DNA from: a virus
Virus record (IMG/VR): IMGVR_UViG_3300039106_000176
Span: 1-35,030 of that record
Length of the DNA stretch: 35,030 nucleotides
Strand: one strand, 5' to 3'
Position 1 is the stretch's first letter, and each line of letters opens with the position of its first letter. Positions 13,319 through 28,412 of the stretch are shown piece by piece. The notes beneath the pieces were generated by a model. It was not told the DNA's origin, did no database searches, and saw only the letters and a list, made by a program, of their open reading frames with translations. The position numbers and the translations under genes were made by a program.

Positions 13319-13836
13319 TGGACGTTAAGATCGAAAAGATCAGCATTGCCAAGCTGATTCCATATGCAGCGAATAGCCGCACGCACAGCGACGCACAGGT
13401 GGCGCAGATCGCGGCAAGCATTAGAGAGTTTGGATGGACAAACCCTATTCTAGTGTCAGATAAAAACGACATCATTGCAGGACATGGCAGACTTCTGGCA
13501 GCTCGCAAGCTTGGCATGGAAGAAGTGCCAGTTATTGTTCTCGATCACCTAAACAAATCACAGCAACGCGCATTAGTGATTGCCGATAACCAACTTGCCC
13601 TGAATGCAGGTTGGGACATGGATATGTTAAAGGCTGAGATTGAGACATTGAACATCGAAGGCTTTGAATTAGAAATTCTTGGCTTTGATGATAGCACTTT
13701 GCAGAAGATATTGGATGAGCCTAATTTTGAAGCTGGAACTGAAGATGACCAAGGTAAGTTAGATCAGCTTGAACCTAAGATGATAGCCTGCCCTAAATGT
13801 CAGCATGAGTTTGATAGCCGTGAAGCCACAGCTTAA
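13318..13836 (+). CDS. ParB/sulfiredoxin-fold nuclease-like protein
   Basis: 172 residues from ATG 13318 (GGAGG 6 bases upstream). The N-terminal 110 residues show the ParB N-domain: LIPYAANSRTHSDAQVAQIA, REFGWTNPILVS, IIAGHGRLLAARKLG (the GHGR nucleotide-binding/catalytic box) and VIADNQLALNAGW. The C-terminal end has a Cys pair, CPKCQHEF. Similar phage proteins are often fused to, or next to, DNA methylases and terminases, and are taken as nucleases or DNA-modification partners. Here its last 32 bases overlap the Mom-like gene. Confidence 0.85.
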   Translation: MDVKIEKISIAKLIPYAANSRTHSDAQVAQIAASIREFGWTNPILVSDKNDIIAGHGRLLAARKLGMEEVPVIVLDHLNKSQQRALVIADNQLALNAGWDMDMLKAEIETLNIEGFELEILGFDDSTLQKILDEPNFEAGTEDDQGKLDQLEPKMIACPKCQHEFDSREATA

Positions 13837-14506
13837 AATAGATTGGGCAACGCACGAAGCTGCAAAGTATGCTTGCGTAAATTGGCACTACAGCGGCTGC
13901 TTGCCAGTTGGGAAGTTGGTTAAGGTAGGCGCATGGGAAAACGGCAAATTTATAGGCGTTGTTCTATTTGGTAGAGGCGCAAACAAATCACTTGGTGAGC
14001 CATACGGGTGCGACCAGACTGAAAGCTGTGAATTAGTTCGTATAGCTTTAACATCACACATAACGCCAGTTAGCAAAATTATGTCGTTTGCTTTAAAATG
14101 GCTTAAAAAAACAAATGAAAAAATTAAACTTGTGGTATCGTTTGCTGATACTGAAGTAGGTCATCATGGCGGAATATATCAAGCAACAAACTGGATTTAC
14201 GACGGTTTAACAAACTCTGCGGATGAGTATCTTTATAAGGGCAAAAGATGGCATGGTCGCGCTTTTAGAAAGTCGCATGGCTCGCACTTAAATTATATGA
14301 ATAAGGGATTGCAAATTGTCAGAGGAGCGCAAAAGCATCGTTATCTCATGCCCCTTGACGCAGATATAAAACAGCGTATTTTACCACTGTCAAAACCCTA
14401 CCCTAAGCGTGTGAAAGATCAGGACTCAGAACACCCTTCTGAACTGGGCGGCGAGACTCCGACCCACACGCTCCAAACTCAGGTGGTAAATGATGACGCA
14501 AACTAA
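13805..14506 (+). CDS. mom: Mom-like adenine hypermodification enzyme
   Basis: 233 residues (Mu Mom is about the same length). GTG 13820 (MKPQLKIDWATHEAAKYAC) is an alternative start. The family pattern is clear: ATHEAAKYACVNWHYSGCLP near the N-terminus, CELVRIAL (75-82), SFADTEVGHHGGIYQATNW (112-130), WHGRAFRKSHGS (149-160) and YLMPLD (180-185). Mom of phage Mu has a GNAT-type fold and converts adenine in DNA to a carbamoylmethyl form that blocks many restriction enzymes. The C-terminal 35 residues are polar and low-complexity, as in related phage proteins. It overlaps both the ParB-like gene and terS, so modification is timed just before packaging. Confidence 0.87.
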   Translation: MSLIAVKPQLKIDWATHEAAKYACVNWHYSGCLPVGKLVKVGAWENGKFIGVVLFGRGANKSLGEPYGCDQTESCELVRIALTSHITPVSKIMSFALKWLKKTNEKIKLVVSFADTEVGHHGGIYQATNWIYDGLTNSADEYLYKGKRWHGRAFRKSHGSHLNYMNKGLQIVRGAQKHRYLMPLDADIKQRILPLSKPYPKRVKDQDSEHPSELGGETPTHTLQTQVVNDDAN

Positions 14507-23984: not shown

Positions 23985-25397
23985 ATGACACAGATTCCAA
24001 TCATTAATGGCATCTATACGGACAACGGGCCAGACTTTAGAACGTCTTATCCGGTGAACCTTGTGCCTGTGCCAAAGGCAACTGGAATCAATAATGGTTA
24101 TCTGCGACCCGCTGAAGGCATTGTCGGCAACGGCACTGGCCCTGGCATTGATCGCGGCGGCATAAACTACAACGGTGTTTGCTACCGCGTCATGGGTTCC
24201 AAGTTCGTATCAGTTGCCAGCAACGGCGCTGTGACGATCTTGGGCGATGTCGGCAACGATGGCGATTACGTTACGCTAGACTACAGCTTTGAATATATCG
24301 GCATTGCGTCGAACAACAATCTATTCCTGTGGGATATAAACACGGGAGTTCTCGCTCAGAACACCGACCCTGATCTTGGCGTTGTTCTAGATACAGTGTG
24401 GGTGGATGGCTACTGGATGACCACTGATGGCGAGTTCCTCGTTGTCACCGACCTAAGCAATCCGTTTGCAGTGAACCCACTGAAATATGGTTCGTCGGAA
24501 GTTGACCCTGACCCAGTGGTTGCCCTGCTGAAGCTACGCAATGAAGTCTATGCGCTCAACCGTCACACAATCGAAGTCTTTGACAACGTAGGCGGTGACC
24601 TATTCCCGTTCCAACGTATCGAAGGCGCACAGATTGAAAAGGGCGTTGTCGGCACTCATGCTTGCTGCGTGTTCCTTGAGAACATCGCATTCCTTGGCAG
24701 CGGCTTTAACGAAGCACCAGGTATTTATCTTGGCGCAAACGCAAACGCTAATAAGGTCAGCACGCAAGAGATTGACGAACTGCTGGCGACATTTACTGAG
24801 GCGCAGCTATCGGGCGTAAAGCTAGAGGCAAGGAACGATCGAGCGCATCAGCATCTATATATCCACCTTCCAGATCGCACGATTGTATTCGACGCAGCGG
24901 CATCGCAGGAATTGGGCCAACCTGTTTGGTTCGAACTGACGAGCAGCCTTGTGGACTATGCCCCATATCGCGCTAGAAACTTCGTGTGGTGCTATGACAA
25001 GTGGTTGCTAGGCGACCCCACCAGCAATGCCATTGGGTATCTTGTGAAGGATATATCGACGCACTGGGGGCAAAAGGTGCGCTGGGAGTTTGGCACGACC
25101 ATTCTGTACAATGATGGGCGCGGCGCGATATTGCAGAACCTTGAACTGGTTTCTCTGACAGGCGCGGTTGCGTATGGCTTAGACCCAACCATTAACACCA
25201 GTTACTCGATCGACGGGCAGAACTGGAGCCAGCAGAAATTTATCAAGGCGGGTAAGACAGGGCAGCGTGCAAAGCGTCTTGTATGGTTCCACCAAGGCTG
25301 GATGCGTAACTGGCGCGTTCAACGCTTCCAAGGCACATCAGACGCTCATATGTCTTTTGCTCGGCTGGAAGCGCAGATAGAGCCGTTGGCTTACTAA
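23985..25397 (+). CDS. P22 gp10-like packaged-DNA stabilisation protein
   Basis: 470 residues (P22 gp10 is 472). The N-terminus IPIINGIYTDNGPDFRTSYP VNLVPVPKATGI and the beta-propeller-like repeats (GGINYNGVCYRVMGSKFVSV, YSFEYIGIASNNNLFLWD) are diagnostic. In P22 gp10 forms the hexameric ring below gp4 to which tailspikes and needle bind. The stop shares one base with the next ATG. High confidence from family pattern, length and order. Confidence 0.93.
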   Translation: MTQIPIINGIYTDNGPDFRTSYPVNLVPVPKATGINNGYLRPAEGIVGNGTGPGIDRGGINYNGVCYRVMGSKFVSVASNGAVTILGDVGNDGDYVTLDYSFEYIGIASNNNLFLWDINTGVLAQNTDPDLGVVLDTVWVDGYWMTTDGEFLVVTDLSNPFAVNPLKYGSSEVDPDPVVALLKLRNEVYALNRHTIEVFDNVGGDLFPFQRIEGAQIEKGVVGTHACCVFLENIAFLGSGFNEAPGIYLGANANANKVSTQEIDELLATFTEAQLSGVKLEARNDRAHQHLYIHLPDRTIVFDAAASQELGQPVWFELTSSLVDYAPYRARNFVWCYDKWLLGDPTSNAIGYLVKDISTHWGQKVRWEFGTTILYNDGRGAILQNLELVSLTGAVAYGLDPTINTSYSIDGQNWSQQKFIKAGKTGQRAKRLVWFHQGWMRNWRVQRFQGTSDAHMSFARLEAQIEPLAY

Positions 25398-26054: not shown

Positions 26055-26390
26055 ATGGCTGTATCAACAAGAGTTCTGATTCCGGCAAAGACTGCTGAGA
26101 ACACACAGACAACGCAATACACTGCGACGAACGTCACAGCTATCATCGACAAGTTCACAGCGACGAACTACAGCGCAACGGCTGCGACGATTAGCGTCAA
26201 CCTTGTGGCATTGTCTGGCAGCGCAGGGAATGACAACTTGATCGTCAAGACCAAGACGCTTCAGCCATCGGAAACCTATACGTTCCCTGAGTTAGTCGGT
26301 CAGGTAATCGCGTCAGGCGGATTTATTTCAACTATTGCCGGAACAGCTACAGCCATTAACATCCGCGCATCTGGACGGGAAATATCGTAA
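26055..26390 (+). CDS. Conserved small virion protein
   Basis: 111 residues with AAAGGA 9 bases before ATG. The pattern STRVLIPAKTAENTQTTQYT, then TATNYSATAATISVNLVALS and IASGGFISTIAGTATAINIR with the ending ASGREIS is common in phage structural clusters. A beta-sandwich virion or decoration role is probable; function not established. Its stop shares one base with the next start. Confidence 0.78.
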   Translation: MAVSTRVLIPAKTAENTQTTQYTATNVTAIIDKFTATNYSATAATISVNLVALSGSAGNDNLIVKTKTLQPSETYTFPELVGQVIASGGFISTIAGTATAINIRASGREIS

Positions 26391-26791
26391 TGAAAAAGCC
26401 AATGATTATGATTGAAGGCTTCGCGGGTATGCGCGAAAGCGAACCATTCATCACTACCGCTGAGAACAAGAAGAACACAGCGATGGTTATCAAGGACTGG
26501 ATGCTTGGCCCTGAGAACCCCAGCAACGAGAAGGGCGCTAACCCTGAATACTGGGTTGCCTTGGGTGTAGCTATGCAAGTCGATGAGGCTGAAGCCCGTC
26601 GCCGCCGCTGCTCACTTTGTGAGTACTACGATAATAGCACAATGACACAGGCCAAGATGGACAAAATCCCTTGGAACCAATGGGACGTAGAAGCCGGATT
26701 CCGTGGTTACTGCACTAAGTTTGAGTTCATCTGTCACGATCTTCGCTCTTGTCAAGCATTTGAGGAACGAGAGTTTGAATTTGACGATTGA
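26390..26791 (+). CDS. Cys-rich phage protein, putative metal or Fe-S binder
   Basis: 133 residues. N-terminal half: MIMIEGFAGMRESEPFITTA, conserved in podophages. C-terminal half holds Cys74 and Cys77 (CSLC), Cys108, Cys115 and Cys121 in a pattern EAGFRGYCTKFEFICHDLRS CQAF, which resembles Fe-S or zinc-binding modules. The protein ends in acidic residues. It directly precedes the cupin-SET gene (66 bases and a hairpin apart), and the pair may work together, though this is inference. Function unknown. Confidence 0.7.
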   Translation: MKKPMIMIEGFAGMRESEPFITTAENKKNTAMVIKDWMLGPENPSNEKGANPEYWVALGVAMQVDEAEARRRRCSLCEYYDNSTMTQAKMDKIPWNQWDVEAGFRGYCTKFEFICHDLRSCQAFEEREFEFDD

Positions 26792-26857: not shown

Positions 26858-27745
26858 GTGACTGCAATATGCCGCACAAAAGACATTGATACAGTTGAAA
26901 GCGTTCTTATTGAGCCTTTCACAAAGGCTTTCAATGAAGCGGATGTTCAGCGTTTAGAGTCGGCACTTCTCGATCTGCCACAAGCTGACTGCCCTATTAC
27001 ACATCGCTTTGCTCCAGGCATTTATATTCGTGAAGTTCGTATGCCAGCAGATGCTTACATAGTCGGACATCATCACAAGACTGCTCACTTCAACAATATG
27101 CTATCTGGTCGCCTGACTATCTTAAATGACGATGGCACAAAGACAGAGCTAGTTGCTCCACAGTCGTTCATTGCGCCTCCTGGTCGCAAGATAGCCTATA
27201 TCCATGAAGATGTGATTTGGCAGAACGTCTTTGCAACTGATGAGCGTGACGTTGATACGCTTGATGAGATGTTTTTAGACAAAAGCGAATCATGGCAGGA
27301 ATCAAAGAAGTTTAACCAGATGCTGTTAAGCTTTGACCACTCTGAAGACATTGCGGATTTTTACGCAGCGATTGAGGAGTTTGGCTTTGAGCCTGAAACA
27401 GTTCGGCAAATATCCGAATTAGAACATGACCAGATTCCGTTTCCGCATGGCGAGTATAAGGTTGCGCTTGGTGATAGCCAGATTGAAGGCAAGGGATTGT
27501 TTGCATCTGGCAATATCCCGCAGTTTGAGGTAATTGCACCAGCATTGATGGGCGGATTTCGCACACCAGCGGGACGTTATACCAACCATTCAAAGAATCC
27601 AAATGCGATGATGTTTCGTATGGAAAATGGTGATATATATCTTGTTGCAATGCGCGACATCTCAGGATGCAAGGGCGGCAGCAACGGCGAAGAAATTACA
27701 GTTGATTATCGTCAGGCTTTAATCGTGACGATAGGGGGTTATTGA
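26858..27745 (+). CDS. Cupin-SET fusion, putative protein lysine methyltransferase
   Basis: 295 residues, GTG start with AAAGG 7 bases upstream. Residues about 50-140 are a cupin-like domain: YIVGHHHKTAHFNNMLSGRL (His71-73, His77 as metal ligands), then FIAPPGRKIAYIHEDVIWQN (His116). A helical linker follows (140-195). Residues about 197-290 carry the SET signature in order: SQIEGKGLFASGNI (207-220), GRYTNHSKNPNAMMF (239-253, the RFINHSCxPN box) and GEEITVDY (277-284). SET enzymes transfer methyl from S-adenosylmethionine to lysine of proteins. There is no pre-/post-SET zinc region. It lies between tail and ejection genes. Confidence 0.8.
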   Translation: MTAICRTKDIDTVESVLIEPFTKAFNEADVQRLESALLDLPQADCPITHRFAPGIYIREVRMPADAYIVGHHHKTAHFNNMLSGRLTILNDDGTKTELVAPQSFIAPPGRKIAYIHEDVIWQNVFATDERDVDTLDEMFLDKSESWQESKKFNQMLLSFDHSEDIADFYAAIEEFGFEPETVRQISELEHDQIPFPHGEYKVALGDSQIEGKGLFASGNIPQFEVIAPALMGGFRTPAGRYTNHSKNPNAMMFRMENGDIYLVAMRDISGCKGGSNGEEITVDYRQALIVTIGGY

Positions 27746-27746
27746 T

Positions 27747-28412
27747 ATGAGTGCAGTAGCAGCAGCAGTTATTGGAAGCGCAGTTATCGGCGGCGTTGTT
27801 TCAAGCAAGGCGGCTAGTAAAGCTGGTAAAGCGCAAGTGCAGGCGGCTGATGCTGCTGCGGCTGAACAGCGTGCGGCGCGTGAAGAAATGCGGACGCTGC
27901 TTAACCCTTATGTATCCGCTGGAACCCCAGCCCTGCAAGCACAGATGGCGGCATTAGGTCTGTCAGGGCCGGAGGCACAGCAAGAATTTGTCACGCAGCA
28001 AGAGCAAAGCCCGTTCTTTCAGTCATTGGCGCGACAAGGTGAAGAAGCTATCCTACAGAACGCATCGGCAACTGGTGGGCTTCGTGGCGGCAACGTTCAA
28101 GGTGCATTGGCACAGTTCCGCCCAGCATTGTTGAATCAGTTCCTTGAGCAGCAATATGGTCGTTTGGGCGGCATGACAAACCTTGGTCAAAATTCTGCGG
28201 CGGGTGTTGGTGCGGCTGGTATGCAAAGCGCAACTCAGATTGGCAACGCATATACTCAAGCGGGACAGGCAAGAGCTGGTTCCGCATTAGGACAAGCTAA
28301 CGCATTCAATCAAGCCCTTGGAACAGTTGCTGGTCAGATACCAGGAATGATTGGCCCTGGAATAAATTCAAGCATTACTAATATGTTTAATAGAAACCCT
28401 GGGATTTTCTAA
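27747..28412 (+). CDS. Ejection protein (P22 gp7-like position)
   Basis: 221 residues starting 1 base after the previous stop. N-terminal hydrophobic Ala/Gly/Val stretch (VAAAVIGSAVIGGVVSSKAA) may insert in membrane; then a long Gln/Ala-rich helix (AADAAAAEQRAAREEMRTLL), and Gly/Ala repeats (TGGLRGGNVQGALAQFRPAL, QTG-like). Similar proteins are DNA-transfer proteins of P22-like phages, released with the genome to build the channel through the cell envelope. It is first of three ejection genes, matching P22 order 7-20-16. Confidence 0.75.
   Translation: MSAVAAAVIGSAVIGGVVSSKAASKAGKAQVQAADAAAAEQRAAREEMRTLLNPYVSAGTPALQAQMAALGLSGPEAQQEFVTQQEQSPFFQSLARQGEEAILQNASATGGLRGGNVQGALAQFRPALLNQFLEQQYGRLGGMTNLGQNSAAGVGAAGMQSATQIGNAYTQAGQARAGSALGQANAFNQALGTVAGQIPGMIGPGINSSITNMFNRNPGIF

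Follow-up and report, generated by a model that had tools for sequence, protein, structure and literature searches.

The window, a virus record of 35,030 bases analysed over its whole length, encodes in its virion operon a protein in which a cupin domain is fused to a SET domain. We propose that this protein is an active, compact SET lysine methyltransferase with a docking cupin, and that it belongs to an exchangeable cassette that would modify virion proteins during assembly. We put the probability of this reading at about 0.5.

The cupin-SET gene and its two domains

The window has the gene order of a P22-like podophage: small and large terminase, P22-type portal, scaffold, coat, the head-tail adaptor Ad3, Hc3, small genes, cupin-SET, a gp7-type gene, a DNA-transfer protein and tailspike. 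This order agrees with an earlier note, made from the sequence alone, which had placed the gene in a podophage structural cluster. The features referred to below are as follows.

23985..25397, + strand: head-closure protein Hc3, a P22 gp10-type stabilisation protein (PF11134, E=6e-35; phrog_578, E=4e-95)
26858..27745, + strand: cupin-SET gene, 295 residues, phrog_34170 family, GTG start (supported by relatives, AF2 model and dN/dS)
26942..27247, + strand: cupin/RmlC-like jelly-roll domain, residues ~29-130, a homologue of Bbp23 (BPP-1) and of further phage cupins
27248..27442, + strand: helical linker, residues 131-195 (DSSP helices 144-186)
27443..27727, + strand: compact SET domain, residues ~196-290, lacking most of the SET-I insert and the post-SET
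27485..27505, + strand: SET box 1, EGKGLFA, residues 210-216 (G211 and G213 invariant, 77/77)
27575..27607, + strand: SET box 2, RYTNHSKNPNA, residues 240-250 (N243 77/77, H244 76/77), preceded by the family motif RTPAG
27686..27709, + strand: SET box 3, GEEITVDY, residues 277-284 (E279 and catalytic-type Y284, 77/77)
27747..28412, + strand: P22 gp7-type DNA-ejection protein gene (PF25688, E=1e-8; phrog_598, E=7e-38)

The GTG start and the N-terminus of cupin-SET are common to its close relatives. The three SET boxes are in the correct order, as first reported in the earlier note, and Pfam SET (PF00856) matches the single window sequence above its cut-off (E=3e-7, 31.2 bits against 22.4). A profile of 12 family sequences matches MLL1, KMT2B/C/D, PBCV-1 vSET, EZH2 and ASH1L in the PDB by sequence. 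The AF2 model of cupin-SET, computed from a 24-row alignment, has a pLDDT of 87.5 and a pTM of 0.82. When this model was compared with the PDB by Foldseek, a check that the note had suggested, both folds were matched: the SET half by the SET domains of MLL1 (6u9m, E=1e-4, probability 1.00, about 125 columns) and EZH2, and the other half by many cupins. Conservation was assessed in 77 sequences, namely the window protein with 74 distinct relatives of full length, and two SET genes that stand separately. R235, T236, G239 and R240 are invariant in this set together with G211, G213, N243, E279 and Y284, and D283, like H244, is kept in 76 of the 77; a relative found later (L470) has Trp at position 240.

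In SET enzymes, the GxG and NH motifs bind SAM, and the tyrosine of the DY motif is catalytic. Because these SAM-binding and catalytic motif residues are intact, methyltransferase activity is likely, and we infer from the sequence that the reaction would be SAM-dependent methylation of lysine. The protein is probably a protein lysine methyltransferase. The cupin-SET fusion named in the earlier note is thereby upheld by Pfam, AF2, Foldseek and the invariant motifs, with its activity as a prediction. Two elements bear on the strength of this prediction. Between aligned blocks of the profile alignment, the cupin-SET family has ~8 residues where MLL1 has ~42, so that SET-I, part of the usual substrate groove in SET enzymes, is mostly absent. 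The sequence also stops shortly after DYRQ, with no post-SET or equivalent C-terminal lid. The missing SET-I and lid weaken the claim of activity but do not exclude it, as accepted SET domains also vary there. The C-terminal part of the linker (~163-195) accompanies SET where SET is a separate gene, and the separate SET genes of loci L118 and L119 align from profile position ~151-160.

For the cupin half, the Pfam match to Cupin_2 by sequence alone is below threshold (E=0.0074). The jelly-roll barrel is supported by the AF2 model and the cupins among its Foldseek matches, and homology to cupins is found through phrog_12032 (E=6e-34) and Vibrio homologues annotated as RmlC-like jelly roll. This half is homologous to a large phage cupin family, which includes Bbp23 of BPP-1 and is widespread among phages without SET. 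Of the His-rich cupin-like barrel described earlier, the cupin fold stands, but the richness in histidine is a local HHH (71-73), and within the motif-1 region the cupin-SET family keeps only H71 and H77. Gln occupies position 73 in 46 of 75 relatives, and the motif-2 histidine (PxGxxH) is absent, with Ile or Met at position 112. The HxD...H triad of 2OG oxygenases was sought in the cupin and is absent, and profile comparison of the cupin with real phage Asp-hydroxylases gave no similarity. With incomplete metal ligands and no profile match to phage hydroxylases, the suggestion in the earlier note of a 2-oxoglutarate oxygenase or JmjC demethylase was rejected. The role of the cupin is more likely structural or binding than oxygenase chemistry, and it may still bind a metal.

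The same note had regarded the fusion as unusual. This view is contradicted by the extent of the family, as cupin-SET relatives are encoded in at least 448 viral contigs; prophage or MAG copies occur in Burkholderiaceae and others. The dN/dS ratio is 0.03-0.08 in the cupin part and in the SET part, a sign that each half is under purifying selection. Neither the split SET of L119 nor L117 retrieved relatives when viral sequences were scanned with them. In MW202557 (L031 3809-4375), an antisense open reading frame is annotated ('contryphan-vn-tryptophan') and the real cupin-SET gene is left unannotated. The cupin gene is also present in PLSDB 'plasmids' of 39-56 kb, for example NZ_CP039344 and NZ_CP090425, which may be phage genomes or phage-plasmids. 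As to novelty, the domains are singly known and the family has been catalogued; the domain assignment, the integrity of the active site, the gene slot and the enzyme swapping are added here. In the literature searched (phage SET with cupin or tail fibre; cyanophage SET), we found no description of a phage-encoded SET lysine methyltransferase.

Three further genes of the window were noted. The product of 13805-14506, directly upstream of the terminase genes, is a Mom-family DNA-modification protein (PF25680, E=5.9e-45) with a likely anti-restriction function. A 111-residue protein without known family (26055-26390) retains 72-80% identity between phages whose coat and Hc3 proteins share only about 25%, and it has the appearance of a tail or fibre module that is exchanged independently. 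The 133-residue Cys-rich protein at 26390-26791 (CxxC and further Cys) is kept beside cupin-SET in close relatives and has no match in Pfam or PHROG.

The gene slot and exchange of the partner enzyme

A gp7-type ejection gene is the next gene downstream in 83 of the 85 cupin-SET loci with a readable downstream gene. The gap is usually 0-1 nt, and in the window the gp7-type gene starts 1 nt past the cupin-SET stop. Many Vibrio, Shewanella and Sphaerotilus phages have the cupin without SET at a corresponding position, immediately before genes of gp7 or T7-gp14 type, and gp7 follows the cupin in 58 of 77 loci fetched with a cupin query. The cupin of BPP-1 and Alteromonas H4/4 lies upstream of the portal instead. 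Among the gp7 proteins adjacent to SET lineages, no lysine is more than 60% conserved, and gp7 was rejected as a fixed-site substrate on this basis. The target may therefore lie elsewhere among the virion proteins, or it may be a host protein or the cupin itself.

Three kinds of enzyme were found as partners of the same cupin, namely SET, Asp/Asn beta-hydroxylase and GNAT acetyltransferase, so that one cupin family is accompanied in the virion operon by different enzyme families, as expected of an exchangeable cassette. SET itself occurs in three placements: fused after the cupin (window), fused before it (L463), and as a separate gene overlapping the cupin stop (L119, a Paraburkholderia prophage). 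We take these alternative placements, with the fusion itself present in hundreds of contigs, as Rosetta-stone evidence. Among prophages of Burkholderiaceae, the cupin start is overlapped by a GNAT gene (PF00583) in 7 loci, as in BPP-1, and by an Asp/Asn beta-hydroxylase gene in 4. The hydroxylase (PF05118) is encoded in at least 229 viral contigs, in a scan that used the hydroxylase alone and not the cupin. The cupin is nonetheless the next gene after it in 70 of 80 fetched loci, with an ATGA or GTGA overlap in most, and these hydroxylases keep an intact HxD...H (H116, D118 and H164). Clustering at 70% identity reduces the hydroxylase loci to only 7 groups, of which 4 have the cupin as partner, so the number of independent hydroxylase-cupin events is modest.

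The partner enzymes were not found together around the fusion: a hydroxylase or GNAT is adjacent in none of 88 cupin-SET loci, and no hydroxylase-cupin pair has SET; the GNAT profile is narrow, and GNATs may be counted too low. In four phages with homologous flanks, this slot holds cupin-SET (MW202744 and PH1), cupin alone (Amaethon) or a hydroxylase without cupin (MW202665). This is non-homologous replacement between homologous flanks. On a cupin tree built from a short alignment, in which gains and losses are indistinguishable, the SET label requires 5 changes, at least 2 of them forced by well-supported branches; on the same short alignment, the hydroxylase and GNAT labels require 2 changes each. 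The cupin is very often found without a detectable enzyme, and the enzyme is therefore not essential to it. In PfAn1, the order is hydroxylase, then GNAT, then gp7. Limnohabitans phage DC33 (L347, PQ492659) has adjacent hydroxylase and GNAT genes in a 39-kb genome with tailed-phage-type genes; its taxonomy line reads Inoviridae, and it is probably misclassified.

Proposed function and alternatives

In the mechanism that we propose, an active compact SET-type protein lysine methyltransferase is fused to a cupin that would no longer be a classical metal enzyme. The cupin would act as the recognition or docking part, binding the target while the partner enzyme modifies it. Depending on the phage, one cupin in the podophage virion operon would work with SET, Asp/Asn beta-hydroxylase or GNAT, and the cassette would be co-translated with the DNA-ejection genes. 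Its targets would belong to the phage virion, whether as ejection proteins, as further components of tail or head, or as the cupin itself; they would be modified before or during assembly, and the selected trait would be modification of the target rather than any single chemistry. We infer the docking role of the cupin; that the substrate is a virion protein is a weaker suggestion, favoured by the location in the late virion operon. The SET, Asp/Asn hydroxylase and GNAT families all include enzymes that act on protein side chains, and GNATs also act on small molecules. More tentatively, the system may be a dedicated virion-protein modification cassette, in which a conserved cupin adaptor brings proteins of the ejection apparatus or tail to an exchangeable enzyme and the particles are modified by the phage's own genes. 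Methyl-lysine on phage virion proteins was reported for the first time in 2026, from mass spectrometry of Cellulophaga phages, and the phage with the clearest capsid methyl site has no methyltransferase predicted in its genome (PMC13288928).

Alternatively, the enzyme may be directed at the host. It would either enter the cell along with the ejected gp7/gp20/gp16-type proteins or be synthesised there, and it would methylate host proteins bound by the cupin, such as a defence factor or a nucleoid or translation protein. The gene adjoins genes of ejected proteins, in Cellulophaga the methylation of host proteins increases upon phage infection (PMC13288928), and the enzyme type differs between phages, as expected of arms-race functions. 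However, in the loci read, cupin-SET is part of the late virion operon and does not belong to an early or accessory cluster. Purifying selection on both halves is strong, and neither shows signs of fast evolution. We consider a host-directed enzyme unlikely.

It is also doubtful, and somewhat more so, that the protein is a structural part of the virion, with the cupin as a short tail fibre or adhesin and SET as a beta-clip module that serves binding rather than catalysis. Database labels of the cupin family read 'short tail fiber protein' or 'tail fiber adhesin' (phrog_12032, phrog_24280), and Shewanella X14 lists the cupin as a structural gene of unknown function. We found no experimental basis for the tail-fibre labels. 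Even between very divergent members, the cofactor and catalytic residues of SET do not vary; a mere scaffold could do without them. The alternative partners of the cupin belong to enzyme families, the hydroxylases with their catalytic residues intact. A bifunctional enzyme, in which an oxygenase or demethylase activity of the cupin would complement the methyltransferase, could draw on the cupin fold, the conserved H71 and H77 and the real 2OG hydroxylase in the same slot of another phage, but is highly improbable given the absent motif-2 histidine, the variable position 73, and the lack of an HxD...H triad and of profile similarity to hydroxylases.

A family of phage genes whose lysine-methyltransferase site is intact and which lies inside the virion operon offers a direct genetic handle on who writes virion methyl-lysine, and why. 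That a methyltransferase, a hydroxylase and an acetyltransferase replace one another next to a single cupin points to protein modification as a general factor in the assembly of podophages or the ejection of their DNA. It suggests that these phages alter proteins chemically when they build or use their particles. The cassette idea can be tested in the cultured phages Rhodoferax phage P26218, Pseudoalteromonas phage PH1 and BPP-1. If confirmed biochemically, an enzyme-swapping cassette would be a new kind of phage system.

Comparison with known systems

The closest catalogued family, phrog_34170 of PHROGs v4, has the same cupin-SET architecture and matches residues 20-289 (E=5.7e-85), effectively the full length, but its function is given there as unknown. 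PBCV-1 vSET (1n3j) and MLL1/EZH2 share the SET fold and the GxG, NHS..PN and E[IL]T.DY motifs with the window protein. The latter differs from them in lacking the post-SET and most of SET-I (against MLL1), in its fused cupin, and in belonging to a bacterial virus with no histone target. The 99-residue SET proteins of marine phages (phrog_28741; P-RSM6, P-SSM7 and Kolga) are likewise compact and share the RTPxGx[FY]xNHS motif with the window protein, but they stand alone without a cupin, and their genes lie outside a structural slot in both P-SSM7 and Kolga. They were rejected as part of the cupin-SET system since their genomic context differs. This stand-alone family is encoded in at least 251 viral contigs (L120 4058-4357; L121-L200), with members in cyanophages and the pelagiphage Kolga.

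Two assembly genes, P22 gene 14, which occupies the slot before gp7, and T7 gene 13, which precedes gene 14, share the operon slot of cupin-SET directly upstream of the ejection genes but are not homologous to it. For P22 gp14 (DUF2824; L212 5912-6367), the best 50 PDB matches of a low-confidence AF2 model (pLDDT 46) are almost all GNAT-type acetyltransferases. We note that this suggested GNAT-like fold is a lead only. As a sequence homologue of the slot GNATs, gp14 was rejected after hhalign, run on a shallow alignment, found nothing. T7 gp13 has a weak match to spermidine acetyltransferase (E=0.39).

In Bordetella phage BPP-1, Bbp23 is homologous to the cupin half and is overlapped by its neighbour Bbp24, a GNAT; unlike in the window, the enzyme belongs to an acetyltransferase family rather than SET and is unfused. 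The podophage Asp/Asn beta-hydroxylase-cupin pairs (L327, L335 and most of L353-L432; also L336 and L338) differ from cupin-SET in that the enzyme is a 2OG oxygenase encoded by a separate gene. They resemble it in having a cupin of the same family, here overlapped by the enzyme gene, and in being followed by an ejection-type gene where tested.
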